Origin: Laburnicola sp. R22_1
Lineage: Eukaryota; Ascomycota; Dothideomycetes; Pleosporales; Didymosphaeriaceae
Direction: 5' to 3'
NCBI GenBank assembly: GCA_014281115.1
Contig: JACONQ010000015.1
Location: 2,170,001 to 2,234,000 of the forward strand
DNA length: 64,000 bases
Every line of letters begins with the position of its first letter. Positions within the stretch are counted from its first letter, which is position 1. A program made the position numbers and the translations under genes. Below, one piece after another: positions 13,859-58,200 of this stretch. Below the pieces are notes generated by a model that was not told the DNA's origin, did no database searches, and saw nothing but the letters and a program-made list of their open reading frames with translations.

Positions 13859-14275
13859 TAAAGATCTTTATTATATAGAGATTCTAACTAAGGTTAAGTC
13901 TATACTATACACAAAGAGGAGTAAAATAGAAGGCTCTAAAACCTAGTACCTAGCACATAGTAGTAGTAATAAAATATATATAAAATAATAATAATTTATT
14001 ATTAACTTTCTATATAGTAGTATTATTAATAGTAGTTAATAAATAGTTAGCTATCTAGCATAACTAAGTTACATATTATCTCTTAACTAGTAGACTATTA
14101 GAGAGCTATAGTAAACTGCAGAGTCGCAACCGCGGGAGCAGTGTGGACAATAGGACGCTTAACTATAGTTTAGTTATTATGCTTGCGATCTAGTAGCTAT
14201 AGCGTAATTATAGTTTGCTGTACGCATAGCGTATAAAGTCTGCCTACTCTTATAACGTTAGGAATGCCCAGGATA
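13859..14275 (-). mobile_element. gamma-family retroposon-like element, short copy (417 bp)
   Basis: Flanked by a 14-bp perfect direct repeat ATATTTTATATTAT (13845-13858 and 14276-14289). Its end next to 13859 is the gamma 3' end, AATAAAGATCTTTA when read on the minus strand, shared with the copies ending at 34,746 and 40,371. It keeps the 3' end and lacks the 5' two thirds seen in the 34.7-37.7 kb copy, as expected of 5' truncation. No reading frame. Confidence 0.8.
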
Positions 14276-14305
14276 ATATTTTATATTATAAAATAAGTCT
14301 TTTAT

Positions 14306-14427
14306 GTAGCGTTATTTTATCTACTAAGGGGTAGGACAATAAAGACTTTTATCTTAAATAACATAATAAAAAAAGCAGAGCCCCCTACTTAGTAATTAAA
14401 AAAGGCGTAAAAAGGTAATGAAAAAAA
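14306..14427 (-). mobile_element. beta-family short copy (122 bp)
   Basis: Direct repeat AAGTCTTTTAT at 14295-14305 and 14428-14438. On the minus strand it begins in a T-run and ends CCTACCCC...AACGCTAC, the beta 3' end. Same ~125-bp form as 16580-16705 and 33159-33287. Confidence 0.85.
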
Positions 14428-14616
14428 AAGTCTTTTATATATTATATTTTATTTTTAGTAATAAGTAATTTAATATATATAATATTGCCTTGTTTAGTAT
14501 ATTATTTTTAATATTTTTAATAATTACTCAAAATTATTAAAGCGCTTAATTACGATAAGTTATTAAAAGTTATTAATTTTAAAAATTAATTACAAGCTTA
14601 TTTATATTATAATAGC

Positions 14617-15982
14617 GGTTACATTGTTTATTTAGTATTAATAATCTTTTTTAATTTTTTTAATTTAAGCCTACGTAGATTAGAATAGAAAGACTGCTCT
14701 AGTCTAGCACCTAAAAATATAGTCTACTCCTAGTCTTCTTTACTAACGTAATAATAGTTTATAAGAATAGTTTATAAACTATACACTTACTTCTTATTAT
14801 CTATAAGCGCTCTAATAGCTATTAAATTTACTTAAAGCGTGTATAGAAAACTAACTTACTTTATTATTACTATTATTAGTAATTACGCTATATTTACGCG
14901 CTGCTATATAGTATACTTATATAATACGCTTACTACCTAATACTATAACTATAAAGATCTAATATATCTACGCAATACTTTTTTCTCCTAGCAACTTAAT
15001 AATAAATATCTTCTTCTTTTTCCTTTAATCCTACTCTTTATTACCGCCTTCCTAACTAGTAATAATATAAGAAACTGTAGTAGGAACTTTATATATCTAT
15101 TATTATACCTTAAGTTACTAATCTATTACTAGCCTAATTAGTACACTAGGACCGCCTTATATAGAGTAAAGTATACCTATTTTCTATTAATAATTTTATA
15201 AATAGAGCAATACTCTAGTATAGATTTAATAACTTTAAGCAGACAAATTATTAGAGCGTACTTTTAGGCGGCGTTAATAGTAGTATTAGTATTAAGGTTT
15301 AGAAAGATAGTAGAAAATAGAGTAATAGTAAAAGTCTTATTAAGGTTAACTTTAATATAAAAATAGAGTATTAGTATATCTATAGTATATATAAGCTCCT
15401 ACCTAGTATATATCTTATAAGTAGCACAAACCTACTAATATAATAGCTATTACTTCTAGCAATTTTTAAAGATAATAGTGAAGGATAATAATAGTATAAT
15501 TTTTATCTCTCTTCTAAAGTTCTAATCGTGGCCTCTTTGTAAATCGACTTTGCATATGGGAGCTATGCGCGCCAAGACCGCCAAGCTCGCTTAGCAGTTC
15601 AAACGCGCTTTTTTTTTATTATTACCTTTTTACGCCTTTTTTAATTACTAAGTAGGGTACTCTGCTTTTTTTATTATATTATTTAAGATAAAAGCCTTTA
15701 TTATCCTACCCCTAGGTAGATAAAATAACGTCACATAGTATAATAAGCACCTTTTTATTTCTTCCCTCTATTCTAAACTAGTATGACGAAGTAGCCTTAC
15801 TATATTTTGTATATAGATTTTTTTAGTTAAAGTAGATACGCTAAGCCTACTAAGCTCGGTTATAACGTGCTAATTTCTTTTTATTAACACCTTAAAACGC
15901 TTTTCTATGTATATAATAGTAGGAGGAATATTTGCTATTATTATAATATTTTTATTAGAAACCCCTTAGTCGCAAAAAAACC
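14617..15982 (+). mobile_element. alpha-family element, full length, with a nested beta copy
   Basis: Direct repeat ATATTATAATAGCG (14603-14616 and 15983-15996, 14 bp). Starts GTTACATTGTTTATTTAG, a RIP form of the alpha start GGTCGCATTATTTACTTAG; ends CCCCTTAGTCGCAAAAAAA, an A-tail. Without the nested beta (15501-15734 plus its 10-bp duplication) it is 1122 bp. No intact frame. Confidence 0.85.
15501..15734 (+). mobile_element. beta-family mid-length copy (234 bp) nested in alpha
   Basis: Direct repeat ATAGTATAAT at 15491-15500 and 15735-15744. Contains the beta 3' half: GAGGCCACGATTAGAACTTT (read in reverse), GCGCGCCAAGACCGCCAAGC, the T-run, TTTAAGATAAAAGCC and the end CCTACCCCTAGGTAG...ACGTCACA. 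Confidence 0.85.
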
Positions 15983-16192: not shown

Positions 16193-16205
16193 TATCTTTT
16201 ATTAT

Positions 16206-16445
16206 GTGACGTTATTTTATCTACCTAGGGGTAGGACGATAAAGGCTTTTATCTTAAATAATATAACAAAAAAAGCAGAGCCCCCTACTTAGTAATTAAA
16301 AAAGGCGTAAAAAGGTGATGATAAAAAAAAGCGCGTTCGAACTACTAAGCGAGCTTGGCGGTCTTAGCGCATAGCTCCCACACATATGCAAAGTTTTTAC
16401 GAAGAGGCCACTTGGAACTTTGGGGGAGATATAACTTCGACACGA
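16206..16445 (-). mobile_element. beta-family mid-length copy (240 bp)
   Basis: Direct repeat TATCTTTTATTAT (13 bp) at 16193-16205 and 16446-16458. Minus strand; nearly the same extent as the 15501-15734 copy, with an additional ~10 bp at its 5' end. Confidence 0.85.
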
Positions 16446-16579
16446 TATCTTTTATTATAACAGCAAAATTCTAATATGGTATTTTATTATTTATTTTGCT
16501 TATTAGTATAGTTTTAACACGTTTCTATAAGCAATATATACTTTTTTTAGGATATTTTACTTATTACTATTATAGTTTT

Positions 16580-16705
16580 GTGTAGCGTTAAATTAACTAT
16601 CTAGAGATAGCACGATACAGACTTTTATCTCAAATAACATAATAAAAAAGCAGAGCCCCTACTTAGTAATTAAAAAAAGCGTGAAAAGGTGGTTACAAAA
16701 ATGCA
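16580..16705 (-). mobile_element. beta-family short copy (126 bp)
   Basis: Direct repeat TATTATAGTTTT (12 bp) at 16568-16579 and 16706-16717. Same short form as at 14306 and 33159, ending (minus strand) GTGCTATCTCTAGATAGTTA...ACGCTACAC. Confidence 0.85.
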
Positions 16706-17289: not shown

Positions 17290-17426
17290 TACGCTTTTTT
17301 ATAATTACATTACCTTTTTTACGCCCTTTTTAATTACTAAGCAGGGGGCTCTGCTTTTTTATTATGTTATTTAAGATAAAAGCCTTTGTCGTCCTACCCC
17401 TAGATAGATAAAATAACGCCACACAC
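17290..17426 (+). mobile_element. beta-family short copy (about 137 bp)
   Basis: Ends CCTACCCCTAGATAGATAAAATAACGCCACAC with the usual beta 3' end; begins near the T-run. The duplication is short or decayed (ATTATT on both sides), so boundaries are +/-10 bp. Probably inserted in the 3' part of the old copia-3. Confidence 0.65.
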
Positions 17427-17467
17427 ATTATTTAAATCTAGATTTTTAGAATCTATAGTTTGCTCTA

Positions 17468-17470
<3 letters not shown>

Positions 17471-17496
<26 letters not shown>
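17471..17496. repeat. TTA trinucleotide microsatellite, left part
   Basis: About eight TTA units, continued at 19343-19370 after the Fot-5 insertion, which used one of the TA dinucleotides in the array. Confidence 0.85.
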
Positions 17497-17498
<2 letters not shown>

Positions 17499-19342
17499 GT
17501 GAGTGTTAAGCGAGTGCCATACTAGGCAAGTGGCCACCCCTAATAAACTTTTAGGCCTTCTACACATACTTACTCAATACTATAACAACCTACTACAATG
17601 CGTAATATATAGAATTAATTAGTAATCTCTACTCTATCTTTTTCGCACGTGCGCGAATTATATCCTATCTCTCTGCAGCGCTTATAGTGCCTTTTACGCT
17701 GCTTATCTGCACCTACTTGCGCTTTACCTTCACGCGTTTCCCCCTCTACCTGCGCCCTAATGTCTAATTGGGCTACTAAATCCTCTGCCTCTTCCTTTAA
17801 TAGGTCTCCGCCCTTCTAAATCCGCTTTCTTTTGCGCAATTTACGCTTAGAAGCTGCTCTGTTTAACGCTTTAAGCTGCAGCACTTAGGTAGCTAGCAAC
17901 GTCTATAAATGCAGTATTATCTTAGAGCCCTTTCTAAGTTAATTAACTATCTTAACTATAGAAGAAGGTAAGGAACCCTAATGTTTTTAAATGCGATCGC
18001 GAAGCAGCGTAGATTAAGCCTCTACTTTAGCGGCGTTGCTTAGTGTTTTGGAGTTCTATTAGGTGGTCCCTAGTGCGGGCGGTGTTGGCGTGCGAAGTTT
18101 GACTTTAAGCTTTAATAGCACTACTAATAGGTTATAAGGCACTAAGCCAGTTACTCTAAAGCTTAATTAGGTATTTATCTTTAAGAACACAGGCTTAAAA
18201 ACCTTTGCAAAGAAGGTAATAAAGGCCTTTTTATTAATTTAGCCAATGTGGTCTATTACTAAGACTCTGATCTCTTTGCTGTATGCCTACTTTAAGGGGG
18301 CAAAACACCTAATATTAGGCGGCTGTAAGATGTGCGATAAGTGTAGAGGCATATAGAGGGTAATTATCTTGTTCTCCTTATAGAGATCCTAGAAGGCAAG
18401 CGACTTGTAGCTCTTATAGCTGTTAATAATAAGCAGCACATAGCTACTCACTTTTTGCTCTCTTATCTGCTTAATAAAGTGCCTTAACTAGGCTATACTA
18501 ATCTTGTTTGTAGTCTAGCCATTATCGCTAACCCTAATACGCTATTAGGGCTTTAAATTAGGGTACTAGGACGTGTTATGGTTCTTTGCTTTAAAGATAA
18601 GGTAGGGCGCAATTGCCTAGCCCATCGCGTTAACGGCGGCAATAAGAGGCACCTACTCACAGTCTCTCTGCTAGACGCCAATAGGCTTAGTGCGTCTCTC
18701 TAAAGTAGTAACTACTTTAACTCGGTTTCTAACGCCCATAGTAAAGCCAGTCTTATTAAAGTTATAGGTATCTTCGTCTAGTATACTGTACTTAGTCTTA
18801 ATATTTAGTACAAGGTTAAACTAGGGTCTAATAACCTCTGGATCGCTACACAAGACTCTCTAACAATCACGCTATTAATTTAAATAGAATTTAAGCTTGC
18901 CCTCGCGTTTAATAAAGTTTAAGGCCTATTTTAGGCTAATAGACTTATTACTACGCGCAGCACGTAGTTGGTTAGCTATATCTTCTACAGAACGCAGTGT
19001 TGGCGCAAATCCTTACGCATCTAGCTTCTTAATATAGTGTCTAAGCGCCTCCTCTTTAGTCTTTTAAAGGCTTAATAATTTAGAATAAGTATCGCGTAGT
19101 GACATCTTCCCAACGCATTGGCGGCGAAGGGTCGTTTAAGACACGTTGTAGATAGTAGCAGCGCGTTGCACACTTAGTTTTTCGGGCGATTTAATTGCCT
19201 AGAGGGCTAATTTAATCCTGTCTTCTTTTAAGAGCTATTCGAGGTTAGGTGATTAAGACATTAAGGTTTGAAGTTCAAAAGCCCCAAAAGTTTATTAGGG
19301 GTAGCCACTCGCCTAGCATGGCCACTCGCTTAACACTCACGT
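17497..19342 (-). mobile_element. Fot-5: Fot1/pogo-type DNA transposon in a TTA array
   Basis: 1846 bp, TA at 17495-17496 and 19343-19344. Inverted repeats start ACGTGAGTGTTAAGCGAGTG and extend about 60 bp to TAATAAACTTTT. One minus-strand transposase. Composition is less AT-extreme than Fot-2. Confidence 0.92.
17650..19261 (-). pseudogene. Fot1/pogo transposase, RIP-inactivated (Fot-5)
   Basis: ATG at 19259-19261. Minus-strand reading: VQRAATIYNVS followed by TLRRQC (HTH), EEALRHYIKKLDA then GFAPTLRSVEDIANQLRAAR, and an ALNFIKR block, matching the Fot-1 order, with stops at former Gln/Trp codons throughout. The C-terminal Cys/His knuckle (CRE-GYN-RT) is still discernible near 17,650-17,690. 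3' boundary approximate. Confidence 0.82.
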
Positions 19343-19468
19343 TATTATTATTATTATTATTATTATCTAGGTGTATATTGTTATTACTATAAAATAGTAT
19401 ATTAATTTCTTTATTAGAGTTATTATTAAAGTTATAAAAGTAATTTTTAAGAATTTTAATATCTCTAG

Positions 19469-30327: not shown

Positions 30328-31179
30328 TCTCTCCTAGGATTAATCCGTAATATTATATAATTCTAGACTAGCTGTTTAACTAACTACTGTGTTACGTAAT
30401 TAATAATTTCTTTAATAATATTTTTTACTATAATAATAATAATAATAAGTATAATAGTAACTAACCTAACTATTTTATTACTCTTCTATAGTAAATCTTT
30501 TCTTATAACTAGTAAGCTATATACTACCCCCTAGGACCTTACTACTACCTATCTTCTTTATACTTCTTCTACTACTACTTACTTCTATCTTTATTATGCT
30601 ACTACTCTTACTTCTTATTATTTTTATACGCTTATAAAATCTTAACTACTACTAAGAGCTTTTTCTACTATAGCTATGCGCGCGCACTCTAGTAATATAT
30701 AAGAAATACTCTCTTCTCCTTTAATAGTTATCTACTACTATATCTTAGTATATTCTCTAGCTTTACTAATAATATAATAGTAAAAGCTATTATTATTATA
30801 CAAATATTACTATATTATTACTTAGGCCTCTATATAAAAGAATAGTCTTGCACTTAAAGATCTAGAGTTGCGTAAAAATAGTATATAGCCTAAATAAATC
30901 ATTAGTTATATTCTCTAGAATAGTATAATTAATATAGTCCTCTAGTAGACCTACCTTAACTATATCTTATAGTAGGTAGGCTAGATAGCTAATATTGCCT
31001 AGCTAGTTGTCTATACTAGTTTTAAATTCTCTAGCAGCTATCTAACTATAGGTATTAGATAACTTAATTTTAGGATACTAGAAAGCTAGCTCGCTATATA
31101 TATTAAAAAGTTAGATTTAAAAGACTTAGTATTATACATATTAAAGGGAAAGAATTTTTAAATATTATAAATATTATAA

Positions 31180-32288
31180 GGTCGACTTACCAAACACCTT
31201 TTTTAACCTGTTTCTTTAGTTTAAAGTTAAAGTAGGTTAAGATAGAAGATTATTATATACTATGTATAGCACCTAATTCTAATTAAAGACTAACCTTAAA
31301 CACTACCTAATAACGCGATAATAGTTTAAACTTACTTGCACTCTATTTATACCTTATAAGCTTCTAACCTATATAAGGTTTACTTATACTATATATAGTA
31401 TACCTGGCTTATTATTACTACTATTATTAGTTATCTGCGCTTATATGCCGCTTACGCGGCATACTTGCTTAGATAAGCTAACTTAATAGTAATAATAGCT
31501 AGAAGGATCTTATAGATTTATGCGACACTCTTGCCACACTAAAGCTTATTAATAAAGACCTTATTGTCCTTCTTTTACGTTCCCTACTAGAGGATTCTAG
31601 TACTAATAAGAAGCAATTACGTTTACTAGAGTAGAAATATAGTACTATTATTCTTTGTAAACTAGACTAGCTGCTAGTCTAACTAGTATATAAGGATGGC
31701 CTTATAAATAGTTAAGTATATCTATTTCTTACGCTAATACGTATCTTATAGACAGAATAGAACTTTAGCGTGGCTATATTAGTAGTAGTAGCGCAAAACT
31801 ATAGCATGTACTCTTTAGTAATAGTAAGTACTTCTTTAGAAATAATATTAATGCCTAGATAGATAGTAGGGTATAAAGTAATAGTGGGGGCTTTGTCTAG
31901 AATAATCTTAATAATGTGGTAATAAAGCGATAAATATGTATCTAGTATATATTACCCTTATTCTACTTATAAGCATAGTAGTATATATCTATTAATATGT
32001 TGACTTATATTATTTATAATAATTAAAATAGTAGAAAAGATAGCTTATAGCGTGGCTGCGCCTAAGTTTTATTCCCTAAAGTTCTAAGTGGCCTCTTTGT
32101 AAAGATTTTGCTTATGGGAGCCTCGCGCTAAGACTGCGAAGCTTGCTTAGCAGTTTGAACGCGCTTTTTTTGTGCCTAAATACCTTTTTACACTCTTTTT
32201 AATTACTAAGCAGAGGGCTCTGCTTTTTTTATCATATTATTTAAGATAAAAGCCTTTGTCGTCCTACCCCTAGATAGAATTAACGCCA
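31180..32288 (+). mobile_element. beta-family element, full length (1109 bp)
   Basis: Perfect 14-bp duplication TATAAATATTATAA (31166-31179 and 32289-32302). Starts GGTCGACTTACCAAACACC, ends CCTACCCCTAGATAGAATTA...GCCATA. Aligns over its full length with 49725-50842. A plus-strand frame with an INKDLIVLLLRSLLED block is shared between the two copies but is interrupted by stops. Inserted in gamma. Confidence 0.87.
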
Positions 32289-32827
32289 TATAAATATTAT
32301 AAAAGTAGGTAGACTTATATAATATATATATAGTAAACTATAGTTATAACTCTACATAGCTCTACTATAGCTCTCTAATAGTTTACTAGTTAAGAAATAA
32401 TATATAACTTAGTTATACTAGATAGTAGACTATTTATTAACTATCTCTTCTAGGCAAGAGTTATAAACTATCTCTACTTATTTAGTTTTTAAGTGGCCCC
32501 ACTACGTTTAATTACTACGTTTTTTTATTACGTTACTAGCGCCTATATAATATGATATTATGTGCGAGCGCTAAGCCCTAGAACTAAAGTGCGTTAAAAT
32601 TTTGCTAATATTCTCCCCCTAGCTTTTAAGATAATAAACTTATAATAATAACACCCTAACTTACTTATCTGCCTACTATATTACTAGATAATAAATAATC
32701 TACTATACGCACGCTTTACTACTACTATAATATATAATAAATTACACGCGTGCTCTTTACTTCTAATACTAAATAGCACTCTACTATTCTTTACTAATAA
32801 TCTATTAACTTATTAATCTCTAGTATA

Positions 32828-34140
32828 GTTTTTTATTTTGCGACTAAGGGGTTTCTAATAAAAATAGTATAATAATAGCAGATATTTCTCCTACTATTAT
32901 ATACATAGAAAAGCGTTTTAAGATAGTATTAATAAAAATAGTTAGCGTGTTATAAGCACGCTAAGCGAGCTTAGCGCGCCTACTCTAACTAAAAAAAATA
33001 TATATACAAAACTATAGGTAAGGCTATATTACTATACTAGTTTAGAGTTAGGGGGGGAGAAGATAAAATAATAGCGCTGGCGCCATAACTAGTATAATGC
33101 TGCAATTATTATCTCCTTTACTATTATCCCTAAAGATATTGCTAGAAGTAATAGCTATGTGTATAGCGTTAAATTAACTATCTAGGGGTAGCACGACAAA
33201 GGCTTTCATCTTAAATAACATGACAAAAAAAGCAGAGCCCCCTGCTTAGTAATTAAAAAGAGCGTAAAAAAGGTAATAACAAAAAAAAAGTAATAGCTAT
33301 ATTAGTAGGTTTATACTACTTATAAGATATATGCTAAGTAGAAGCTTATATATACTATAGGTACACTAACACTCTATCTCTATATTAAAGTTAACCTTAA
33401 GACTTCTACTACTATTTCTATTATCCTATTTTCTACTATCTTTCTAGGCCCTAATACTAAAGTTACTATTAACGCCGCCTAAAAGTATACTCTAATCTGT
33501 CTACTTAAAGTTACTAGGCCTACACTAAAATATCGCTCTATCTAGGGCATTATTAATAGAAGTAAAAGGTATATCTTACTCTATATAACGCGGTCCTAGT
33601 ATACTAACTAGACTAGTAATAGATTAGTAACTATAGACGTAGTAATAGATATAGAAACTTCCTACTATACCTATATTGCCTTGTATTACTATATATTAGA
33701 AAGAAGATAAATAAAAATAGAATTAAAGGTAATAAAGAGAAGATAAAGATGTTTATTAATAAGTTACTAGGGGAGAAGAGTGTTGCGTAGATACGCCAAA
33801 TCCTTATAGTTATAGCGTTAAATAGTAAGCGCGATACATAAGTGCGCTAGGACAGTAGCGCGCTTATAGCGCAATTGCTAATAATAGTAATAATATAGTA
33901 AGTTAGTTTACTATGCACGCTTTAAGTAAATTTTAATAGGTGTTAGAGTGCTTATAAATAATAGGGCAAGTGCACAGTTTATAAACTATTATAAACTGTT
34001 ATTATATTAGCGAAGACTAGAAGTAGACTATGTTTTTAGGCGCAAGACTAGAGCGGCCTTTCCATCCCAATCTACGCAGGCTCAAATTAAAAATAATGTG
34101 ATTAAAAAGGGTAATTAACACTAAATAAACAATGCGACTA
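32828..34140 (-). mobile_element. alpha-family element, full length, with nested beta
   Basis: Duplication AAYCTCTAGTATA (13 bp, one C/T difference) at 32815-32827 and 34141-34153. Minus strand from GTCGCATTGTTTATTTAG at the right to CCCTTAGTCGCAAAATAAAA at the left (A-tail). 1171 bp after removing beta at 33159-33287 and its duplication. Matches 14617-15982 and 55807-56980. Confidence 0.83.
33159..33287 (-). mobile_element. beta-family short copy (129 bp) nested in alpha
   Basis: Perfect 13-bp duplication AAGTAATAGCTAT (33146-33158 and 33288-33300). Best-preserved short copy: minus strand T-run, TTACGCTCTTTTTAATTAC, GGGGGCTCTGC, TTTAAGATGAAAGCC, then GTGCTACCCCTAGATAGTTA and the end CGCTATACAC. 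Confidence 0.9.
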
Positions 34141-35747
34141 AACCTCTAGTATACTTTTCTAGTGTTAACCTTACTTTATCTATCTTTTATAAAAATCCTA
34201 TAGTATAAATACGTACCTATATATGCCTAACACCTCTTATAGCTACTTTATATAGATCTTACCCTAGAAATTATACTATAGCTTCTTTAGATTATATAGC
34301 CTTATATTATTCTTTTAGAGTCTTTTATAACCTTTGCCTATTATCTTTTACTACTTTTAAAATTATATTTAGTAACTCTTATTAATATAGCTAAGTATAA
34401 GACAGCTAAACTAGTAAAGAGTAAGCTATAAGTTAAAATCTATAGTCCTATAGTTATTATTACTATAAAATAAACTAGCTAAGACAATCGATTTACTATA
34501 TAACATATATTATACTACTATATTATTAGTAATATTAAAAGGCGTTTAACCTTTACTATACTAATTCTAGCTATTTTTATTATTTTTATCTTTCTTATTA
34601 TACACGTATTGACGTGTAACTGTCTGCCTAGTAGTAATAGTATTGTTAGGACAAGAAATAGCTATACTAGATTATAACTTTAAGGTCTCTAGCTTGCGCA
34701 ATAATTAAATATATTATATAATAGATAAATAAATACTTAATTTATTAAAGATCTTTATTATGTGGAGATTCTAACTAAGGTCGAGTCTATACTATATAAA
34801 AGAGAAGTAAAATAGAAGGCACTATAACCTAGTACCTAGTATATAGTAGTAGTAATAAAATATATACAAAATAATAATAATATTATTATTAGCGTTCTGC
34901 ATAATAGCATTATTAATAGTAGTTAATAGATAGTCTGCTATCTGGCATAACTAAGTTATATATTATCTCTTAACTAGTAGACTATTAGAGAGCTATAGTA
35001 AAGCATAGAGTTATAACTATAGTTTACTATACGTATATTATATAAGTCTGCCTACTCTTATAATATCTATAATATCTAAAAATTCTTTTTCTTTAATACA
35101 TATAATACTAAGTCTTTTAAATCTAACTCTTTAATATATATAGTAAGCTAGCTTTCTAGCGTTCTAAGATTAAGTTGTCTAATACTTATAGTTAGATAGC
35201 TATTAGAGAATTTAAAACTAGCATAAATAACTAGCTAGGTAATATTAGCTATCTAGCCTACCTGCTACAAAATATAGTTAAGGCAAGCCTACTAAAGAAC
35301 TAGATTAATTATACTATTCTAGAAGTTATAACTAATAATCTATTTAGGCTATATACTATCTTTACGCAACTTTAGATTCTTAAGTACAAAACTATCCTTT
35401 TATATAAAGGCCTAAGCGATAATATAGTCATATTTATATAATAATAATAGCTCCTTACTATTATATTATTAGTAAGGCTAAAAAATAGACTAAGATATAG
35501 TAGTAGACGACTATTAAAGAAGGAGAAGATATTCTTTATATATTGCTAGAGCGCGCGCGCAGCTATAGTAGGAGAAGCTCCTAGTAGCAGTTAAGATCTT
35601 GCAAGCGCATAAGAATAATAAGAAGTAAGAGCGGCGGCGCAATAAGGGTAAGAGTAAGTAGTAGTAAGGAAAGTATAGAGGAGATAGGTGGCGGCGAGAT
35701 CCTAGGGGGCAGTATATAGCTCGCTAGTTGTAAGAGAAGATCTACTA

Positions 35748-37618
35748 ACATACTTTGCACTCGAGTCGATTATTCTATCGAGTCGATTACTTTGCCAAGA
35801 CCCTACTAAGTTCTGTACTATTTACAATAGTATAGAGTCAACATAAACTATTTTTAATAGTCTAAATAGGCTAATCTATTTAGAATCTACTTCTATAGGC
35901 TACCTATAGGTTATTTTGTTATACCCAGGCTTGCCGCAGCGTCTACAGTGCTATTAAGCAGATTTGCCTCTATTAGTGCGCACTCTCTTCTTCGCCTTTT
36001 GCCCATTACTGCGCGCCCTAAACTCCTTTAAAGTGGCTAGCCGCTAGCCCTCTTTAGCTATAAGGACTTCTTTACGCTGTACTCGCTTTCTTTTATATAA
36101 TTTATGTTGTGTGGCAGCCTTATTAGTAGGTTAAAGTTTGGCGTTGCGTTTAGTTATTAACACTAAAGAATGCCCTATTAGCTTAGCGCCTTTAATAAGC
36201 TTTTCTACCGCCTTAACTATATAAGTTAGGGAACTATCTATATGCGTTTAAATCCTCTGCTTAACCAGCGTTAATTGCGACCTAAGTTCTATACTATTGT
36301 GCAGAGTTTGCAACTTCTATATACTATTATAAATAGTATAAAGTAAAGGCGTACGTAGGCGGATATTAAGCTGCGATATTACAACTTCTAGATTGTGGGG
36401 CACTAGGCCAGCACCTTAAAAGCCTTCTTTAATATTACTTTTAGTAATTAAAGCCTTAAAAGCAGCAATAAAGCAAGATAGGAACTCGATTTTAGTAATG
36501 TGCGTAATGTGGTTGCGTATTAGATTCTTAGCTTAGCGTCTATACGCGTTCTTTAATAGCGTAAAACAATCTATATTAAGTGGCTATAAGAGGTGCAATA
36601 AATGTAGAGGCATATAGAGAGTAATAATATTACTCTTTTTATAGTAATTCTAGAATTTAAGCGAGTTATAACTTTTATAGCTATTAATAATAAGTAAATA
36701 TAATTTACTAGTAGTACGCCTCTTTATATACTTATTAAAGTACTTTAGCTATTGTAGACTAAGCTTATTTATTATCTAGCCATTCTTAAAGACTACAATA
36801 ACCTAATTATAAGGTAGATCCTTCTTCTTATACTAGGCGAAGAGGTAGTACTTGCCCCCAAAGATAATAAAGGGTGGGATCTACCATCCTATTACGTTAA
36901 TGCCTTGGATAACTATTATCCACTCCCTATTGTCCTACTGTACCTACTTTAGCCATTCTTAACGCTTGGAGCCTATAACTACTACTCTAGTTAATATTAT
37001 GCCTATTATAAAGCCAGACTTGTTAAAATTATAGGTATTCTTATTTAGGATACTATACTTAGCCTTTATATTCTCTATAAGCCAGAACTAGTCTTATATT
37101 ACCTTAGGATCCTTCTAGAGAGCTCTCTTATAGTTGTACTTTTAATTAAACTTAACTTAAAGCTTTAGCTGGCGCTTAACAGAGTTATAAAGCCACCTCT
37201 AGCTAACTAGCTTGTAGTGGCGTGCAGCTAGTAAAGAATTGGCCATATCTTTTATAGTATTAAGCTAGGGCAGAAATTCTTACACATTTAGGTTAAGTAT
37301 ATACTGCACAATTACCTGCTTCTCTCTTATAGTAAGTCTTATTTTATTAGGTGCGCAGTCGCGTCTAAACGTCTTTCTGGCGTATTAGTTACTAAGTGTA
37401 CTTTAAGAGACGTTATAGAGGGCTATAGCGCGTCGCTAAGAGAGTGTCGCGTCTTATTTAATAGTCTAGATTGCAAGCAATATACGCACTTCTTTTAACG
37501 CTAGTAGTTTATTATATAGATAAGATATCGCGTTATACTATTACTAATAGTACGTTTTAGTAGAGTCTTGGCAAAGTAATTAACTTAATAGAATAATCGA
37601 CTCGAGTGTAAAGTATGT
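35748..37618 (-). mobile_element. Fot-3: Fot1/pogo-type transposon, sister of Fot-2
   Basis: 1871 bp, TA at 35746-35747 and 37619-37620; ends ACATACTTTGCACTCGAGTC / ACATACTTTACACTCGAG. Inserted in the gamma copy: the uninterrupted site (TTTACTATAGAAGAG on the minus strand) is seen at about 30,480-30,500. Confidence 0.92.
35890..37540 (-). pseudogene. Fot1/pogo transposase, heavily RIP-degraded (Fot-3)
   Basis: Minus-strand alignment to the Fot-1 and Fot-2 transposases throughout; start codon now ATA. A knuckle remnant CRRCGKPGYNK lies near 35,920-35,950. Dozens of in-frame TAA/TAG. Boundaries approximate. Confidence 0.82.
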
Positions 37619-38021
37619 TATAGAAGAGTAATAGAATAGTTAAGTTAGTTACTATTATAATTATTGTTATTATTACTATAGCAAAAATATTATTAAAGAA
37701 ATTATTAATTATATAATATAGTGGTTGGTTAAACAGCCGACCAAATACTTAATTTATATCTAGTTATAGATTTTATATTACGTATACATAGGTAACTATA
37801 TATTATATTATTAACTATCTCTAGTATAAGAGGCTAATTTGCACGTGCTAATAAATACTTATAATAAATAGTCTCTAGTCTAACCTATTTCTAAGTAGCT
37901 TTACTTTTTTTAATATGATTTTAGTACACCTATAGCTTTTTTTTATAGTATTATACTATATACTAAAAGGTCTACAATATTTTTCTTCTAGATCTATTAA
38001 CTACTATTAATAATACTATTA

Positions 38022-40212
38022 ACATATTCTATTAGTAGTTCGAACAAATTAGTCCGCCGAATAGTTTTTGCCAAGACTACAACACTTCACTATAAATTAT
38101 AATGTCTTAATAACACGACGCGTTATTATCTAATTATAAAGGTAGAATTAAGCTTGCCCTTCACGCCTATTAGAATAAGCAAATTTTAAGCCTGCGACGC
38201 GCTGCTATAGTATATAATATCCCAAAGTCTACACTAAGTAATTAAATTAACAGAATTACCGCCTAAGTAAATACACAATTAGGCATGGCAAAGCTTACTA
38301 TAACTAAAGAGCAGATGCTTATATAGTATATCCTTAACCTAGATTCGCGAGGATTTGCACTCTAGCTAGGTAAGGTAGAAGATATAGCTAATAAACTACT
38401 AGCTGCGTGGTATAAAGACCCTATAGAATAATACTAGGCTTAGCGCTTTGTAAAGCGCATACCTAAGCTTAAAATGGCTTTTAATTAAGCGAGGGACTAA
38501 TAGAGAATATAATAGAAAGACCTAGAGATTATAAACACGTGATTTTAGCTAGTAAAGGACACAAAAGCCAAGTATAGAGTGTAGGATAAAGACATCTATA
38601 ACTTTAATAAGACAGGCTTCTAGATAGAAGTTATTAGCTTAATAAAGGTTATAACTAGTTTAGAAAGACGTTCTTAACCTACGCTTATTTAGCTAGGCAA
38701 TTGCGAGTAGGTTATAGTAATTTAGAGTATTTGTGCTACTAAATATACTACTCTACCCTTTATTATCTATAAAGGGCGAGTCCACATCTTAGCGTAGTAT
38801 AAGAAGACTAGTATCTCCTACAATTAGAAGCTCTTAGTCTCTAAGACTGGCTAGACTAACAGCGAGCTTAAAGTTGTGTAGTTAAAGCACTTTAACGCGT
38901 ATATAAGGCCGCGCATAGTAAGGTTATAGAGGTTACTTATTCTAAACAGCCATAAGAGTTACCACTCCTAGGATTTTAAGGATTATTGCCTAGAATAGAA
39001 GATCCTAACACTCTGTATGTTAGCGCACTTATCTTATATCCTCCAGCCGCTTAATATAGTCTGTTTCGCGCCACTAAAGCTAAAGTACTCCTAGCGCGTA
39101 CGGGACTTAGCGCGCTAACGCGTCTTTTATATTAATAAAGAGGGCTTTCTACTAGTCTTTTATAACGCGTTTTTTAATGTGTTTACACTAGAAAACTATA
39201 AGAAAGTCTTTAAGGCCTCTAGGCTTATTTCTTTAGATACGTTAGTAGTAGTAAATCGCCTTAATGTGCGTATTTATACTCCACCTTAGGGTACCCTACT
39301 AGATACACTATAGTAAGCCAAGACCCTAAGCAATACCCCTAAGTTTAGATCCTAGTTAAAGCTCGTACGCAACTCTTTTATTTAGTCTCTATCTAATACT
39401 AAATCGAGTTACTTACAGCTTATAAAAAGTGCTAAACTTATGCTCTACCATAGTGTACTTTAAGAGACCCGCATTAAGAAACTTAAGGAGTAAATTAAGG
39501 TTCTAACAAAGTAAAAAACGCGTAAAAAAAGCGCATTTAGAAAAGTAGGACGCTAGGCTTTACTTAGGAAGCAGATTTAGGAGTAGAAAGCCCTTTTATT
39601 AGGGTAAAGTTATTAAAAAGGGCGCGAGGTAGTAGTAAGAAAGCGGCAGGTTCCTTAACACAACGCCACTGTAGGAGGTGTAGAGAGCCTAGGCATAATA
39701 CAAGGACCTATTAGATAGATAAAGAGATAGAGGAGGAGTTAGATATTACCCTTAGCGGCTTATTTTTAGATAGTGTTAATAGTAAATTAGAGTAATTTTA
39801 TTATAGGTTACTATAAGGCCAAAAATAACGAGTTAACTTTATCTTATAATAGTATGCACTTAGTGACTAAAAATTAGATAAAGTACTACTTAAGATATAG
39901 TATACTTTACTGCGAATCACAATAAGTATACTATATATTACCTATATATAGTATGGTAGATAATATATCGTATATTATAGAGAGTCTTGTTGTAAGTTCG
40001 TACTGCTAAGAAAGACTTCTTAGCTTTACGCGGCTGCACGACGTAAAAAGTAGATTAAATAGTAACTTAGTATATTATAAGTTATAGTAGATTATTATGA
40101 GTCACTATAAAGTAACGTTAGTGGTGTTCTATAATAAGTTATAAGGGACCTCGAAGTTGCTAAGAAAAACTATCCGGCGGACTAATCTATTCGGGCTACT
40201 AATAGAATATAT
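38022..40212 (+). mobile_element. Fot-4: Fot1/pogo-type transposon, divergent lineage
   Basis: 2191 bp, TA at 38020-38021 and 40213-40214; ends ACATATTCTATTAGTAG and (reverse) ATATATTCTATTAGTAG, then ATTAGTCCGCCG in both arms. Inserted in gamma, whose sequence is continuous across it. Confidence 0.87.
38102..39795 (+). pseudogene. Fot1/pogo transposase, RIP-inactivated (Fot-4)
   Basis: ATG 38102 followed at once by TCT TAA TAA. Then MAKLTITKEQMLI (38286 on), ILNLDSRGFAL, GKVEDIANKLLAAWYKDP, FVKRIPKLKMAFN; nuclease motifs NFNKTGF, LLILNSHKSY and QPLNIVCF, all three Asp changed to Asn; zinc knuckle CRRCREPRHNTRT near 39,665-39,705. The protein is longer at its C-terminus than in Fot-1. End approximate. 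Confidence 0.82.
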
Positions 40213-40665
40213 TATATAGAATACTAATAATAAAATTATTATTATTTTGTATATATTTTATTACTACTACTAGGTACTAGGTACTAGGTTATAGTGCCTT
40301 CTATTTTACTCCTCTTTATATATAGTGCGGACTTAATCTTAGTTAGAATCTTTACATAATAAAGATTTTTAATAGTATTAAAGCTAAGAATATACTTTAT
40401 TAGCAAAATACTAAATGTTAAAATATAGTTTCTACTACGTTTTTCTACTAATTTACTAATTTACTCTTAATAACTTTTTTAATATCTCTACTAAATAGTA
40501 CCTAAATTAAAAACTAAGGCCACCGCTAGAACTATAGGGGCCTATTACTCCTATTCTAGCCCTCTTTAGCCTAAAAATAGTGCTAGTTACATTAAAAATC
40601 CACTAAAACACCCTATTTTTATATACTTTTATTTTTATTTTTAGGCCTTAAAAGGGGAGTTATAT

Positions 40666-47922: not shown

Positions 47923-48109
47923 GTAGTAGTTTGTTTTCTTTTGCGACTAAGGAATTTCTAATAAAAATTACAATAATAGCAGATATTTCTTTTACTATAT
48001 ACACAGAAAAGCGTTTTAAAGTGTTAATAAAAAGAAATTAGCACACTTACTCTAACTAAAAAAATCCATATGTAAAACTATAGGTAAGGCCACATCGCTA
48101 TACTACGGT
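47923..48109 (-). mobile_element. alpha-family short copy (187 bp) in R1 unit B
   Basis: Perfect 14-bp duplication TCTAATTAACCTTA (47909-47922 and 48110-48123); the empty site is visible in R1 unit A near 29,770. It keeps the alpha 3' end (minus strand ...TTCCTTAGTCGCAAAAGAAAAC) and about 180 bp upstream of it. Confidence 0.9.
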
Positions 48110-49026
48110 TCTAATTAACCTTAAGTCTAACTTCTTATAAAAAGAATACTTAGGTAATAAATTTAATAGTAAACTATCTAATAAAATTTCCTAGAACGCT
48201 AATAATTAGGAGCTACCTCTTAAGTATTAGCTCTTACTCTAATCTACTAGTTACCTAACTTATTCTACCCCTAGGGGCACCTTAAGCTACTAAAATAGGT
48301 AGTCTAGTTTACTACTAGTTAAGTAGTTTCCTAGCTAGCCTACTATGCATAAACACCAATTACTTTTAGTACTCGTATTTTTAGCTATTCTCTTCTTAGC
48401 TAACTTACTACTAATTTAGTAGCTTTTTAACTATTATGTTTATAGGATACCTTTTAGCACCTTTGCCCCTAGCTATCCTCTTTCTAGCTAACTTACTACT
48501 AATTTAGCAGCTTCCTAATTACTATGCATATAGGGCACCTTTTAGTACCCCTATCTTACTACACTAGTAGCTCCTATAGCTTTATAAGCTACTCTATCCT
48601 AATTAAAAACTATATAGTTAGGTTAATATATTTTTTTAAAATACATTTCTATAGTACTAAGAAACCTAATAAAATATAATTGCGCTAGCGCGTAATAAAT
48701 TAACTAGAATTTTTTTTAGCTAACTATATTTTTATATAGTATTAGAGCTAAAGATGCGCTCTATTAGTAAAACACTTAATACTAAGATATAGTTTCTACT
48801 ATACTTTTCTACTAATTTACTAATTTACTCTTAATAATTTTTCTTAATATCTTTACTAAATAGTATCTAAATTAAAAACTAAGACTACTACTAGAACTAT
48901 AGGGGCCTATTACTCCTATTCTAGTCCTCTTTAGCCTAAAAATAGTGCTAGTTATATTAAAAATCCGCTAAAATACCCTATTTTTATATACTTTCCTTTC
49001 TATTTCTAGGCCTTAAAAGGGGGTTA

Positions 49027-49312: not shown

Positions 49313-49317
49313 GTTTT

Positions 49318-49715: not shown

Positions 49716-49724
49716 TTATTATAT

Positions 49725-50842
49725 GGTCGGCTTGCCGAATACCTTTTTTAACTTATTTTTTTAGTTTAAGGTTAAAGTAGGTTAATATAAAAGGTTATTA
49801 TATACTATGTACAGTATCTAATTCTAATTAAAAACTAATTTTAAACATTACCTAATAATATAATAATAGTTTAAGCCTTAAACTTACTCGCACTTTGTCT
49901 ACACCCTATAAGCTTTCTACTCACATAAGATTTGCTCATACTATGTATAGTCTACCTAGATTATTGCTATTAGCATTATTAACTATCCGCGCTCGCATAC
50001 TACTATAATAGCCAGAAGAATCTCGCAGATCTATATAACACTCTTGCTACACTAGAGCTTATTAATAAAAATCTTATTATCTTTCTTTTACGTTCTCTAC
50101 TAGAGAATTCTATAACTAATAAAGAGCAATTATGCCTACTAGAGTGGGAATTTAATCTTATAGTCCTTTGCAAACTAGATAAGCTATTAACCTAACTAGT
50201 ACACTAGAACTACCTTATGGATAGCTAAGTATACCTATTTCTCGCGCTAAATAAGTATCTAATAAATAGAATAAAACTCTAGCGTAGTTACCTTAAGGGC
50301 AGCGTCGCAAATCTTTAGTGTGTACTCTTTAGTATTAGTAAGTATATTAGCGTTAGATAATTTAGGGTTAATACTTAAGTAAATAATAGGGCGTAAAGTA
50401 ATAGTAGAGATTTTGTTAAGGATAACCTTAATATGGCAATAGAGCAATAGTGTATCTAGTACATGTTACTCTTATACTACTTATAAGAAATAGTACATAC
50501 CTATTAATATATTAACTTGTGTTATTTATAATAATCTAAATAGTAAGTTTGCAATAATTAGAATAATAGAGGAAGAATGGCTTATAGTGTTGCTGCGCTA
50601 AAGTTTTATCCCTCTCCTAAAGTTCTAACTATGGCCTTTTTATAAATTAACTTTGTATATAAGAGCTATGCGCGCTAAGACGGCTAAGCTTACTTAGTAG
50701 TTTAAACGCGCTTTTTTTGTAATTACTACCTTTTTTACGCTCTTTTTAATTACTAAGCAAGGGGCTCTACTTTTTTTATTATATTATTTAAGATAAAAGC
50801 CTTTGTCGTGCTACCCCTAGGTAGTTAGTAGAACGCCACACA
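49725..50842 (+). mobile_element. beta-family element, full length (1118 bp)
   Basis: Duplication TTATTATAT (9 bp; 49716-49724 and 50843-50851). Starts GGTCGGCTTGCCGAATACC, in which CGGC-TT-GCCG can form a small hairpin; ends GTGCTACCCCTAGGTAGTTAG...CGCCACA. Inserted in copia-3 between protease and integrase. Co-linear with 31180-32288. Confidence 0.87.
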
Positions 50843-52299: not shown

Positions 52300-55200
52300 T
52301 TAATAAAAAGATTCTATTAAGTAACTATTTATTATACTTTACTACTATTTATTAGAGGCGTAATTAGGCTTATTAGTAGTAAAGTAGTAGTCTAGCTAAT
52401 AGCGGTTAAGAGTAAGATTACGTAGTTAATAATAAGATTACAGCAATAATATATTATTTATACAAAGTTCTTTTTACTTAGTTTATTTTTATATAATAAG
52501 TAAACCTATTTATCTTATCTATTTAGGTAGAAATATTAGGCAATTATGTAATATTAGATAAGGGAAGACAAACACTAATAAGGAGTAGAAATTAAGACTC
52601 TAGATAGAAGGGAGAGACATATAAGGTAGGCTTTCCTTTTTTTATTCTTCTCTCTCTTATCCTCTACTTTAAATATCTCTCTATATATATCTCTTCTCTC
52701 TAGCTTTTTTCTCTTTTTATTAAGCTAATCCCCTATTTTATATAATACTAACTTAGTATAAATAATAGCGCTTATACTAGTACGTCTTAACTAGCTAGGC
52801 CTCCCTAGCTTTAATGCTACTATAGTAGCTCTTCTAGACAGAAAAATACGCATTACTCTCCTAACTAGTTCCTAGGCAAACTATATATTTATTTAGGGCA
52901 TTTCTATTAATATAAGTTCCTCTATTCTTTACTTTTTATATAAATACTAACTATAAAAATAGGCTAAAGAGTTGCGTGTCGCATATCTGCCTTTATATAA
53001 TATTAATATTATTCTTATAGCTAGTATAGACCTGCATTTATAGGTTACTAAGCTTATTTAGCGTAAGGGCTATTTTTGCGCGCTCCTTATCTAGTTATAT
53101 AGTATCCTTAGGGGCACTATATACGCTTACTACTATAGTAGTAATTTTGGCCCTAGGCCCTTTACTAAGTGTTGTATAATAGTAAACTTTTAGGCAGGAT
53201 TATATAGTTCTTATATATAGTAGAGCTATAGTGCTAGATGCAATTATCGCACAGAATAGAGCTAAATAGTAGAATAGACACTTTTAAACATTATTTATAA
53301 GTACTAAAATAAAAACTCCTCTCTAAATAAATGTGTGCTATATCTCTTCTCTTTCTATACAAATAATAAATAGGAAAATACGTATTTTTACGTAATATAT
53401 ACGTGTAAAAAGAATTAAATAAATATATTGCGTAAAAGAATAGACAATTAATAAAGAAATAGTACTATATAAAGACTAGAAAGAGCTTATATAGGCGGGC
53501 TTAAGGCAATTTACTAATACTTTAATAGTAATTATTAAGGTGTTGCTAGAGATTAAGAACTCTAGAGTCTAGTTTAGGGCCTTCTTTATATAGGCATTAG
53601 TAGGGTTATCCTTTCTATTAATCTATCTAATCTTAAAAAATCTTCTAGTGCTTATACAATTCGCAGAGTAACATAATATTAATTATAAGGCGCTTCTTAT
53701 TTATAGTTTCTAGTTATATAAGGCAGTTATAAAGAGACTTTAAATCTATATAAATAATTATAAAAATTAGTAACAGACTAAGTATACATATAATTCTCTA
53801 GAGGGTTATACTAATAGTAATAGTATTATTCAAGCCTCCTATTATACTATATAGCTTACTAGTAAGAATACTTCTTATTACTTTCTTATACTTAGTTAAA
53901 TTCTAGTATATAATATTTGTCAAAATATTAAAGTTATTGCTATTATCTATATAATACTTATTACCTAAAGCGATTAGAAATTCTAGCTATAAGCTTAGGT
54001 CCTTATTATTAGCGAATAAGCTATTAGTAAAGATAAATAGCTTTGTATAATAGAAATCTAATAGTATAATAATAAGACTATACTTACTATTATTAATCTG
54101 CTATTAGATTTATATATTTAATACCTTAATATCTTTATATAAGGGTAATATAGTCTAAGTAGTAATAGATAAATTAAATACGACTTCTAGTTAGTATATA
54201 GATATAATATAGACGTCTCTTATACGCTGTTCTATATATCTCTACGCAGTATTCTTATCTTCTAGATTAATTATATAAAGGCCCTTTACTTAGCCTTTTT
54301 ATATAAGAACTATAGTGTTATATATAAGCCGAATTCTTCTACTATTAAACTTAATAGGTTGGTCCTTAATAAGGATAGTCTTATTCTTTGCATAGAAGGC
54401 TACTTTCTTTAGCTCTTATTTTTCTTTTTATATAAAGTTCTTATTAATAATACTAAGAGTAGTATCTATCTAAAGGCTAGTAATCCTAAAGGTGTGCTCT
54501 TCTTTATTAGTAATAAGTAAATATAAGTTATATAATAAAGTCTTTATACTAAGTCTTTCTTCATAGTAGTTATAGTAGGTCTTAAACTAGTAAAGATCTA
54601 ATTTAGCTACACTATAGAGTAGTTATATAATATAGAAGATTATGTCTTATAGAAAGTTTATATATAGTTCCTTAGGTAGTCTAGTATAGAGCGTGTAGTT
54701 TAGTTTATTAGTAGACTAAATACAGGCCTAGATAATATCTTATAGTTTAAAATATATTTTATATATTGCCTAAAGGCTTACTCCTAATATAAGGAGTAGG
54801 CGCTGGCTTATCCTTTCGATAGTAAGTAATTAGGTAAGAATTTTATCCTTCTTCTTATTAGAGTGGCTAGTAAACACAAGGCAGAATTTCTTATATAGTT
54901 AAGTAGTCTTGCCCTTAACTTCTTATATAAGGCGGAGGTTAAAGATTCTACCCTTATACTTAAGTAGGTTAAAGAGAAGAATCTTAAATATGCTATTAGC
55001 AATAAAAGCGTCTATTTCAATATAATCTAACTCTTTAAAAGGTGCTCTAGGTATTGTAATTACACCTTCTATATAGAGCTTTAGAGATAATTTCTAATTA
55101 CTTATCTCTTTTTAGAAAATAAATGCAGCATTTTTTCTTAGGCGGCCTCTTTTCCTCTTCTCTAAAGGATTTCTTTATATAGGGGCGATATTATCTACTT

Positions 55201-58200
55201 TATATAATAGTAGAGGAGTGTAATCTGTTTTATAATAGTATAGCTTAACTTATATATAATAAAACTTTACTAGACTATTCTCTAGTTTAAAGATTATATT
55301 TTTATTCTTAATGCTCTTAATCTTATATAGGCCTATCTATCTACCTTTTTCTCTCTAGGCTATAATCTTAAATTTAAGTAAAAGCTTAAGGACTTTGTAC
55401 GCTGCTAATAGACTATTATAGATATTTAGTATATAATTAATATTAGTCTTATCTCTTTCCTTCTATAGTATCTTTATTACTTTTTATATAGTATTCGCGT
55501 GTGTAATAATATTAGGTAATAGGAAGAGTCTATACTAATTCTAGAATATGCACTAAAGACTAGTAGTGTGGGTATAAGGCTATCTAGGCCTATAGTATTA
55601 TTAATAGGTTTAATAGCTATTTAAAGAATATTCTCTTTATTTATATAATCTTCTAGTTTAGCCTTAAGAATATTAAAGATTTTATAGAGAGGTGCATACA
55701 AATACTTAATCTTCTCTATTACCTAATATACTTCTATAGGCATCTGCCTATAGATTACGCTAATAATCTTTATATAGTTCCTAACCTTATCTAATATAAA
55801 GTTTATGGTCGCATTATTTACTTAGTGTTAATCACCTTTTTAATATATTTTTTAAATTAAGCCTGCGTAGGTTAGGATAGAAAGGCCGCTCTAGTCCAGC
55901 GCCTAAAAATACAATCTATTCTCAGTCTCCGCCAACGTAATAATAGTTTATAAGGACAGTTTATAAACTACGTACTTATTTCCTAATTATCTATAAGCGC
56001 TCTAACACCTATTAAGTTACTTAAAGCATGTATAAAAAACCAACTCTTACTCTATTATTACTATTATTAGCAATCGCGCCGCATTTGCGCGCCGCTATAT
56101 AGCACACTTATGCAACGCGCTTACTAGCTTACTATCTAATACTATAATAACTACAAGGATCTAATATATCCACGCAATGCTCTCCTCTCCTAGCAACTTA
56201 TTAATAAATATCTTCTTCTCTTTCTCCTTAATCCTGCCCTCTATTACCGCCTTTCTAACTAGCAGCAACGTAAGAAACTATGGTGGAAACTCCGTGCATC
56301 TATTATTACTACTCCTATAGTTACTAATCTATTACTAGCCTAACTAGTACACCAGAATCGCCTTGTATAGGGTAAGGTATACCTTCTACTTTCTATTAAT
56401 AATACTCTAGATTGAGCGGTATTCTAGTATAAACCTGGCAACAGCGGCGAGTGGATGGATCTTTAGAGCGTACTTTTGGGCGGCCTTAACAGCGGCATTA
56501 GTATTAAAGCTTAGAAAAATAGTAGGAAATAAAGCGGTGAAAGTCTCCTTAAGGTCGACTTTAATATAAAGATAGAGTGTTAGTATACCTATAGTGTATA
56601 AGCTTCTACCCAGCATATATCTTATAAGTAGCACAAATCTACTATTATGGCTGTTGCTAGCAATCTTTAGGAATAATAATAAAAAAGACAATAGTTACAG
56701 CGTTGTACTAGTTGCGGCGCTAGCGCTATCTTATATCTCTTTTCTCCCTACTCTAAACTGTGGTATAGCAATATGGCCTTACCTATAGTTTTGTATATAG
56801 ATTTTTTTTAGTTAGAGTAGGCGCGCCAAGTCTACTAAGCTCGCTTAGCTCGCTTATAACGCGCTAACCCCTTTTTATTAATATCTTAAAATGCTTTTCT
56901 GTGTATATAATAGTAGGAGGGATATCTACTATTATTGTAATATTTTTATTAGAAACCCCTTAGTCGTAAAAAAAAACATCTATAAAGTTTATACCTAGGT
57001 TATATATAATATAGTTAGGTAGACCTTAGTAGATATTAATTTAGCATCTATAAAGGGCTTCCTACGCATTTTATACAGATATTAATTTTAAGAAGATTAT
57101 AGCTTAAAATAATATATTTATATCTATAATATATAATGCGTCTCTAGTTCTAATACGTATAATGTTAATAATAATCTTATAGTTAAAGTGGGTATTATCC
57201 TTAATAGTAAACTTAAAGCGACGTAGAGTTTATTTATACAATTAATAGTAGTAGCAAAACTTCTAAAAAAATTTTAGTATAGTAGCATACACTTTATAGC
57301 TAGCATTAGTAAGCATCTTTTAAAGTCTTTCTATATAGGGATATTCGAATTATTAATAAAGATAATAGAGTTCTTGTATAGTAAAGAAAGATATAGTTTC
57401 TTTCTTACTAATATTAAAGAAAGAGTATTTCTATTTATATATCATAGGTATAGTTATGCCATTCTTTTATATAATAATATTTAGAATATTATTAAAGTAG
57501 GCACCTAGCTTATTAGCATCTGCTAGTAATAGCAGAAATAGTATTAGAGTGTCTAAGATATAATAGGTAACTATTTCTATTAAATTTATAATTTGTATAG
57601 TTCCTAGAGATCCTTATAGGTTCTAATTTCTAAAGCTAATATTAGTGTTGCTAGGTGTCTAATTAATCTTTATATAGAAGTTCTCTTATTCGTATATCTC
57701 TAGCTATACTTTGCTAATAGTAGAAATCCTTGCTACACCTATATCTTACAATTTATCTTAGTATATTATATAGTATTAATCTTTAAGAATAAACTATTTT
57801 ATACACTTCTCTAGCTCTATTTTATAGATATGGTCGCTAGTTATATAGTAAAGATAGGTAGTAGTAGTTAGATAGGACACTTAATTATTACCATTCTTAT
57901 TATTTTTACTCTGCTCCTCTTCTTTATGCAAAGTAGATTCCTTATTATTATACCCTTCTATATCCAAAATATAGAACTAAATTGTTTTGTACAAAGGCGT
58001 TTTATTATTATACTCTTTATAGAAGGTAATATACTACCTTATTACGCAGGTACACTAATCGCGCAGATAGTTAGAAGACTAATAACCTTTCTTATAGCAC
58101 ATAAAACACTTCTTTAGTCTTATACAAATATTATTTAATTAGAATCTAAATTGCAATAATAATAGTACAAATTGTCTACAAAATCCTTATTTATAAGGGG

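Follow-up and report, generated by a model that had tools for sequence, protein, structure and literature searches.

Three high-copy, apparently noncoding repeat families in Laburnicola as probable non-autonomous retroposons

The stretch of DNA considered here, a window of 64,000 nt from Laburnicola sp. R22_1 (C7:2170001-2234000), holds nested copies of three repeat families, called alpha, beta and gamma, and raises the question of what kind of element these are and by what machinery they were spread. A preliminary description had placed all three in one superfamily that begins with GGTCG, is flanked by target duplications and is moved by a single partner of the long interspersed nuclear element (LINE) type. 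From the window and from searches over its own genome (64 Mb, 26 contigs), we regard alpha/beta and gamma as high-copy, apparently noncoding, non-autonomous retroposons of the non-long-terminal-repeat (non-LTR) kind, transcribed in the manner of RNA polymerase II (pol II), moved in trans by a LINE and degraded by repeat-induced point mutation (RIP), a reading to which we give a probability of roughly 80%. The elements are about 1.11-1.18 kb long.

Ends, target duplications and truncation

Alpha and beta are homologous from end to end (best nhmmer E-values 1.8e-85 and 3.9e-77), with an identity of about 60-63% in blastn cross-family matches free of nested beta. Both start with GGTCG, and their full-length copies end at or near this motif with duplications. 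Gamma, on the other hand, was not detectably related to either family in nhmmer cross-profile searches: the matches touching gamma loci (the best two per search) were flanking or nested sequence, and the gamma profile gave a single, marginal match on an alpha locus (E 8e-4). When six gamma copies were extended outward they proved to have a common 5′ start, TTCTCCCCTAGAGTTAATC, about 40 nt upstream of the supposed GGTCG, and the copy at 30328 in the window carries the same start. An exact duplication of 12-17 bp abuts it in four of the six (L070, L072, L077 and L078), and none was found for L073 and L080. The true 5′ end of gamma therefore lies some 40 nt further out, and at 34746 the GGTCG marks where that copy was cut short. 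A superfamily united by its GGTCG start thus comprises alpha and beta, but not gamma, which has another start and unrelated sequence.

The three 3′ ends are likewise unrelated, alpha ending in an A run plus CC, beta in ACGCCACACA and gamma in AAGATCTTTA. A number of short beta copies have a second 3′ end, TAGTTAATTTAATAATA, and lack ACGCCACACA; as a side observation, a beta subtype with terminal TAGTTAATTTAATAATA in place of TTAACGCCACACA was seen in short copies at loci L031, L033, L037, L038, L064 and L067.

Insertions were counted in the window and in loci fetched genome-wide (30 of the 40 scored for alpha, 30 of 40 for beta and 12 of 40 for gamma, plus 8 from a first alpha search), with L001, L003, L004, L009 and L039 left out of the counts of insertions and pieces for overlap with the window or with one another. 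Among the resulting 149 3′-anchored insertions (78 beta, 55 alpha and 16 gamma), 80 are flanked by exact duplications of 9-18 bp, and 63 (42%) by duplications of at least 11 bp; when the 5′ and 3′ flanks were shuffled by re-pairing within each family, the corresponding frequencies were 7.9% at 9 bp or more and 1.0% at 11 bp or more. Full-length copies (43 of 66) and short ones (36 of 65, those starting beyond position 900) alike carry exact duplications of 9 bp or more, and the lengths overlap among the three families. The tabulation of lengths that the preliminary description had called for thus revealed variable duplications, and not the fixed 5 bp of LTR elements or 8 bp of hAT elements that it had named as evidence to the contrary.

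The duplication begins at T|ATA in 58 of the 80 cases, compared with 14 of 80 at its other end, which served as the control. By family, TATA lies within -2 to +4 of the duplication start in 20 of 29 alpha, 34 of 46 beta and 4 of 5 gamma insertions, and at the other end in 4, 9 and 1 of the same sets; it occurs at 8-9% of positions drawn at random from the AT-rich portion of the window. We considered whether a terminal AUA of the RNA might pair with the nicked target, and set this aside: at a beta copy (16579) and at one in L026 the junction lacks ATA where the target lacks it, so that ATA seems to be part of the target. Given that T|ATA is common to all three families, including gamma, which is unrelated in sequence, it points to shared machinery and suggests one endonuclease behind alpha, beta and gamma insertions.

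Most incomplete copies are truncated at the 5′ side. Of 124 partial pieces inside the loci, some of them fragments split by nested insertions, 86 retain the 3′ end only (25 alpha, 51 beta and 10 gamma), 20 the 5′ end only and 18 neither, and the earlier statement that short copies always keep the 3′ end was therefore too strong. The 5′ break points of short copies fall at many positions, beside flanking duplications. Genome-wide, counting one short pattern per end with up to 3 mismatches, we found 1629 3′ ends and 226 5′ ends of beta, 939 and 221 of alpha, and 537 3′ ends of gamma, over 3000 3′ ends in all; the reversed patterns, used as controls, gave 0.

The copies carry the marks of RIP. 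Variable columns are exclusively C/T or G/A in 369 of 474 cases for alpha and 365 of 468 for beta, CpA/TpG is depleted and the TpA/ApT ratio is 1.68-1.78. Median pairwise transversion divergence is 2.5% for alpha, 2.3% for beta and 1.0% for gamma, which looks the youngest family, though its 12 copies were close matches to a single query. The possibility that short copies escape RIP was examined and found no support, the number of CA plus TG per 110 nt of tail being 4.2 in short and 3.6 in full-length alpha, and 4.6 and 7.0, respectively, in beta. Judged by its AT-rich blocks of RIP type, which lie next to genes with a GC content of 55-62%, the genome would seem to be of a filamentous-ascomycete kind.

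Coding capacity, promoters and structure

Eighteen read-through frames were searched up to E 1, six for each of three sequences (an alpha copy, a beta copy and 1001 bp of a gamma copy), and no Pfam family scored above its cut-off. Gamma or beta as coding elements were rejected on this result and on the fixed stops found in every frame of the filtered alignments; with stops read as residues, protein-like text appears in any frame. The longest stop-free run of beta was reached in 165 of 300 shuffles, and the phase bias of alpha/beta transversions is weak (26, 11 and 19 of about 86 in one segment).

Boxes A and B of RNA polymerase III (pol III) promoters, which the preliminary description had proposed to look for, did not emerge, the best A plus B matches in alpha, beta and gamma being no better than those in shuffles; T runs occur inside the elements. 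Terminal inverted repeats are absent, with 5, 8 and 9 matches of 25 when the first 25 nt were compared with the reversed last 25. Hairpins lie 47-75 nt from the end in all three tails, and the tail folds are no better than those of shuffles. An Rfam search of the window, which bears on a head related to tRNA, 5S or 7SL RNA, gave no match at E-values up to 1; its sensitivity is lowered by the RIP mutations of the copies. Ribozymes of the hepatitis delta virus (HDV) type begin with GG, and an HDV-like ribozyme at the GGTCG start was considered; simple pseudoknot-free folds were unconvincing and, the window being without an Rfam match, this candidate was dropped.

Mobilization and rival explanations

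On the reading that we prefer, an ordinary pol II-type RNA would probably be made from each element, and a LINE-encoded endonuclease would nick the bottom strand of the target at T|ATA. The free end would then prime reverse transcription from the 3′ end of the element, second-strand cleavage 9-18 bp away would give rise to the duplication, and incomplete reverse transcription would leave copies with the 3′ part only, often the last 80-250 nt, which RIP would mutate afterwards. We infer pol II transcription, mobilization in trans and a single shared LINE partner from the features described above.

Several observations weigh against this reading. One is the outcome of the search for the partner, in which 150 of 662 reverse transcriptase candidates in the genome were scored against RVT_1 and 22 gave matches of at least 750 bp, here termed LINE-length, the assignment to the LINE type being inferred from length. 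None of these 22 lay within 6 kb of an alpha or beta tail, among the best 40 alpha and 42 beta tail rows, and no LINE with any of the three 3′ ends emerged among the 22 compared. The fetched loci are the best-scoring copies rather than a random sample, biased to long and well-preserved ones, and RIP-able sites differ between the 5′ and 3′ count patterns, so that the end ratios are rough. No exact duplication of at least 9 bp flanks 69 of the 149 insertions, for which RIP, nesting and mis-set ends are likely, if unproven, reasons. The gamma target motif comes from five insertions, and 20 of the 124 partial pieces are anchored at the 5′ end. Truncation is also non-uniform, the 5′ breaks of short copies piling up at beta 1023-1028, where a GC-rich stretch and a run of T have just ended; a stable hairpin as the cause of this hot spot was rejected, the folds being no more stable than those of shuffles. 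Finally, the least RIP-mutated gamma copy has a stop-free run of 117 aa, reached in 1 of 300 shuffles, the least RIP-mutated alpha copy has one of 109 aa, reached in 8 of 300, and variation is 3-periodic in parts of alpha and beta; these elements may thus hold an ancient or short open reading frame. Target-primed reverse transcription in trans, as first proposed, nevertheless agrees well with the variable duplications, the mainly 5′ truncation, the absence of inverted terminal repeats, the failure to find a coding domain and the T|ATA common to all three families; the shared target site supports a common partner, although no LINE with a matching 3′ end emerged among those compared.

A more specific proposal is that a single T|ATA-nicking LINE machinery amplified at least two unrelated lineages of long noncoding RNA, whose 3′ ends are of three quite different kinds, each to copy numbers in the hundreds or above. 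We advance it tentatively, at slightly less than even odds. If true, the reverse transcriptase would need neither a shared 3′ tail nor poly(A), and its passengers would have in common the choice of target site rather than homology of the RNA tail. The competing idea that each family had a LINE of its own and that the target preference is shared by coincidence appears unlikely, though it deserves serious attention: the three 3′ ends are unrelated and the LINE-length reverse transcriptase matches fall, by our own grouping, into roughly three length groups, but the T|ATA start is strong in every family and the duplication lengths overlap. That gamma, and perhaps alpha/beta, might instead be no independent element but the 3′ untranslated region of some longer LINE is improbable. 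It draws on a gamma tail (C1:2562914+) that lies 3.1 kb downstream of a LINE-length RVT_1 match (C1:2559048-2559809+) on the same strand, found among the first 100 of 537 tails and a lead by position only, for which the rough chance expectation is 0.07 with the 100 listed tails and 0.37 with all 537, and also on the stop-free run of gamma, the longest of the three when set against shuffles. Against it, gamma has a defined 5′ end with duplications in four of the six extended copies, the full-length copies of alpha and beta have duplications of their own and terminate at GGTCG or close to it, and another gamma tail close to a LINE-length match (C1:3766532+, 3.3 kb from C1:3769824-) lies on the strand opposite to that match.

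Processed copies of noncoding RNAs that are abundant in the host, as opposed to self-sustaining families, would also be devoid of pol III boxes, as are these families, and could end in an A run as alpha does; we nevertheless think such an origin rather less probable still, with over 3000 3′ ends, with alpha and beta both amplified at a difference of ~37-40%, and with an Rfam search of the window that stayed empty at E-values up to 1, RIP lowering its sensitivity. Elements of the LTR, terminal inverted repeat or Helitron type, or solo LTRs, might have been misread, LTR and pogo-like elements being abundant alongside, but the duplications are variable at 9-18 bp rather than fixed at 2, 5 or 8 bp (or at 4-6 bp), terminal inverted repeats are lacking and truncation is mainly 3′-anchored, and we consider a misreading of this kind very improbable.

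Copies in the window, neighbouring repeats and related systems

The copies found in the window are collected in the table. The preliminary description had named seven of them as 1109-1174 bp long with flanking repeats of 9-15 bp; this stands for six, whose net length is about 1109-1174 bp once the nested beta copies (15501-15734 and 33159-33287) and the pogo-like insert are subtracted, but not for gamma at 30328, whose 3′ end is missing. At the alpha copy at 14617, the last G of the ATATTATAATAGCG repeat is the first base of the element. The pogo-like insert inside gamma at 34746 measures about 1.87 kb (about 35751-37618).

Table. Copies of alpha, beta and gamma in the window (positions within the window)
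Copy	Position	Strand	Flanking duplication	Remarks
Alpha, full length	14617..15982	+	ATATTATAATAGCG, 14 bp, at 14604/15983	split by 5′-truncated beta 15501-15734
Beta, 5′-truncated	15501..15734	+	ATAGTATAAT, 10 bp, at 15491/15735	nested in alpha
Alpha, full length	32828..34143	-	CTCTAGTATA, 10 bp, at 32818/34144	nested short beta inside
Beta, short, about 130 nt	33159..33287	-	13 bp	nested in alpha
Alpha, full length, 1174 bp	55807..56980	+	TATAAAGTTTAT, 12 bp, at 55795/56981	uninterrupted
Beta, full length, 1109 bp	31180..32288	+	14 bp, at 31166/32289	inserted in gamma
Beta, full length, 1118 bp	49725..50842	+	TTATTATAT, 9 bp, at 49716/50843	
Gamma, true 5′ end TCTCTCCTAGGATTAATCC, 3′ end missing	30328..32443	+		split by beta; matches gamma as far as position 953 (window 32443)
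Gamma, 5′-truncated by ~40 nt at GGTCGG	34746..37742	-	AAATACTTAATTTAT, 15 bp, at 34731/37743	pogo-like insert inside
Gamma, 5′-truncated	13859..14275	-	14 bp, at 13845/14276	variant with extra internal sequence
Gamma, 5′-truncated, about 190 nt	40180..40372	+	unconvincing, 8 bp	
Beta, short	14305..14430	-	11 bp	
Beta, 5′-truncated	16205..16445	-	13 bp	about position 913 to end
Beta, short	16579..16701	-	12 bp	
Beta, short	17295..17425	+	none recovered	
Alpha, 3′ end	47934..48110	-		older, diverged, 69% to majority sequence

Other repeats surround these copies. A RIP-mutated Gypsy-type LTR element with protease, reverse transcriptase and RNase H matches occupies 19300-26757 on the minus strand, with a repeat pair at 19466-19665/26558-26757 (87%). 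A DDE/pogo-like element of ~1.9 kb is represented by six mutually similar stretches (6500-13328, 17428-19332, 35751-37618, 38089-40179 and 61504-64000), with a DDE_1 match at 8289-9050 in one of them and another lying inside gamma. A further repeat family at 26801-30220 and 40373-49724, for which a scan of a few frames gave no Pfam match, contains LTR-looking repeat pairs at 40475-40657/48840-49022 and 40899-41065/49151-49317. At 51858-60396 lies a probable LTR element with a repeat pair at 51858-52165/60091-60396 (87%) and no Pfam domain above the cut-off in the parts scanned; the alpha copy at 55807 appears nested in it. The 3′-anchored repeat of this element was considered as the LINE and rejected, since its appearance is rather that of an LTR pair. 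At 19718-19947 there is a tandem repeat of 10 bp (TATTTAAGAC/TATTATAAAC), and a similar 10 bp repeat is expanded in two alpha copies (L037 and L038), near alpha position 136.

A pol III head and a tail matching that of a LINE are the usual defining features of elements called SINE-like, after short interspersed nuclear elements (SINEs). We file alpha, beta and gamma as retroposons of a LINE-dependent kind, with a putative LINE partner, and not as classical SINEs. Of the fungal SINEs, MgSINE and AfuSINE are likewise non-autonomous, and the duplications of AfuSINE2 are given as 4-14 bp, but according to PMC5063351 such elements derive from tRNA or 5S RNA and have promoter features of the pol III kind, whereas A and B boxes here were no better than in shuffles, and they are shorter (140-493 bp in A. 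fumigatus, 472 bp for MgSINE) and of low copy number, compared with more than 1 kb and high copy number here.

Closer parallels may be Eg-R1 and Egh24 of Blumeria graminis, which are presented as SINE-like non-LTR elements in PMC6022598 and PMC5063351. By description rather than by sequence, alpha, beta and gamma would be comparable in kind to Eg-R1, an ascomycete, non-autonomous element that, as portrayed in PMC6022598, lacks A and B boxes, has internal T runs, is proposed to be transcribed by pol II and is suggested to have over 3000 insertions, a figure likewise exceeded by the 3′ ends of our families together. According to the same text Eg-R1 has no genomic poly(A), as is the case for beta and gamma, whereas alpha differs by its A run. 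The Blumeria elements measure 700 and 900 bp (EGH24 being 900 bp) in PMC5063351, compared with 1.11-1.18 kb here, and Blumeria is described as without RIP, whereas the copies here are heavily mutated by it.

The RIME, NARTc and SIDER elements of trypanosomatids offer a second likeness, as short non-autonomous partners of LINE-type elements (this and the following as set out in PMC2323293). SIDERs are degenerate, with 785 and 1073 copies and vestiges of 11-19 bp duplications in a minority of SIDER2, and the active trypanosomatid families have some target specificity. RIME and NARTc arose from ingi/L1Tc by deletion, and a 79 nt signature at the 5′ end is common to RIME, NARTc and SIDER and the autonomous elements that they partner (PMC2323293), whereas no such LINE relative was found here; unlike that signature, the start shared by alpha and beta is part of a full-length homology and is absent from gamma.

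Families of more than 1 kb in which neither a pol III head nor a LINE-matched tail was found, and which stand at high copy number in a genome with RIP under a common site rule, would make a direct test of what a fungal LINE requires of its passenger RNAs. Their heavy nesting could be misread by annotators, and such families would explain some of the AT-rich repeats left unclassified in genomes of this kind.

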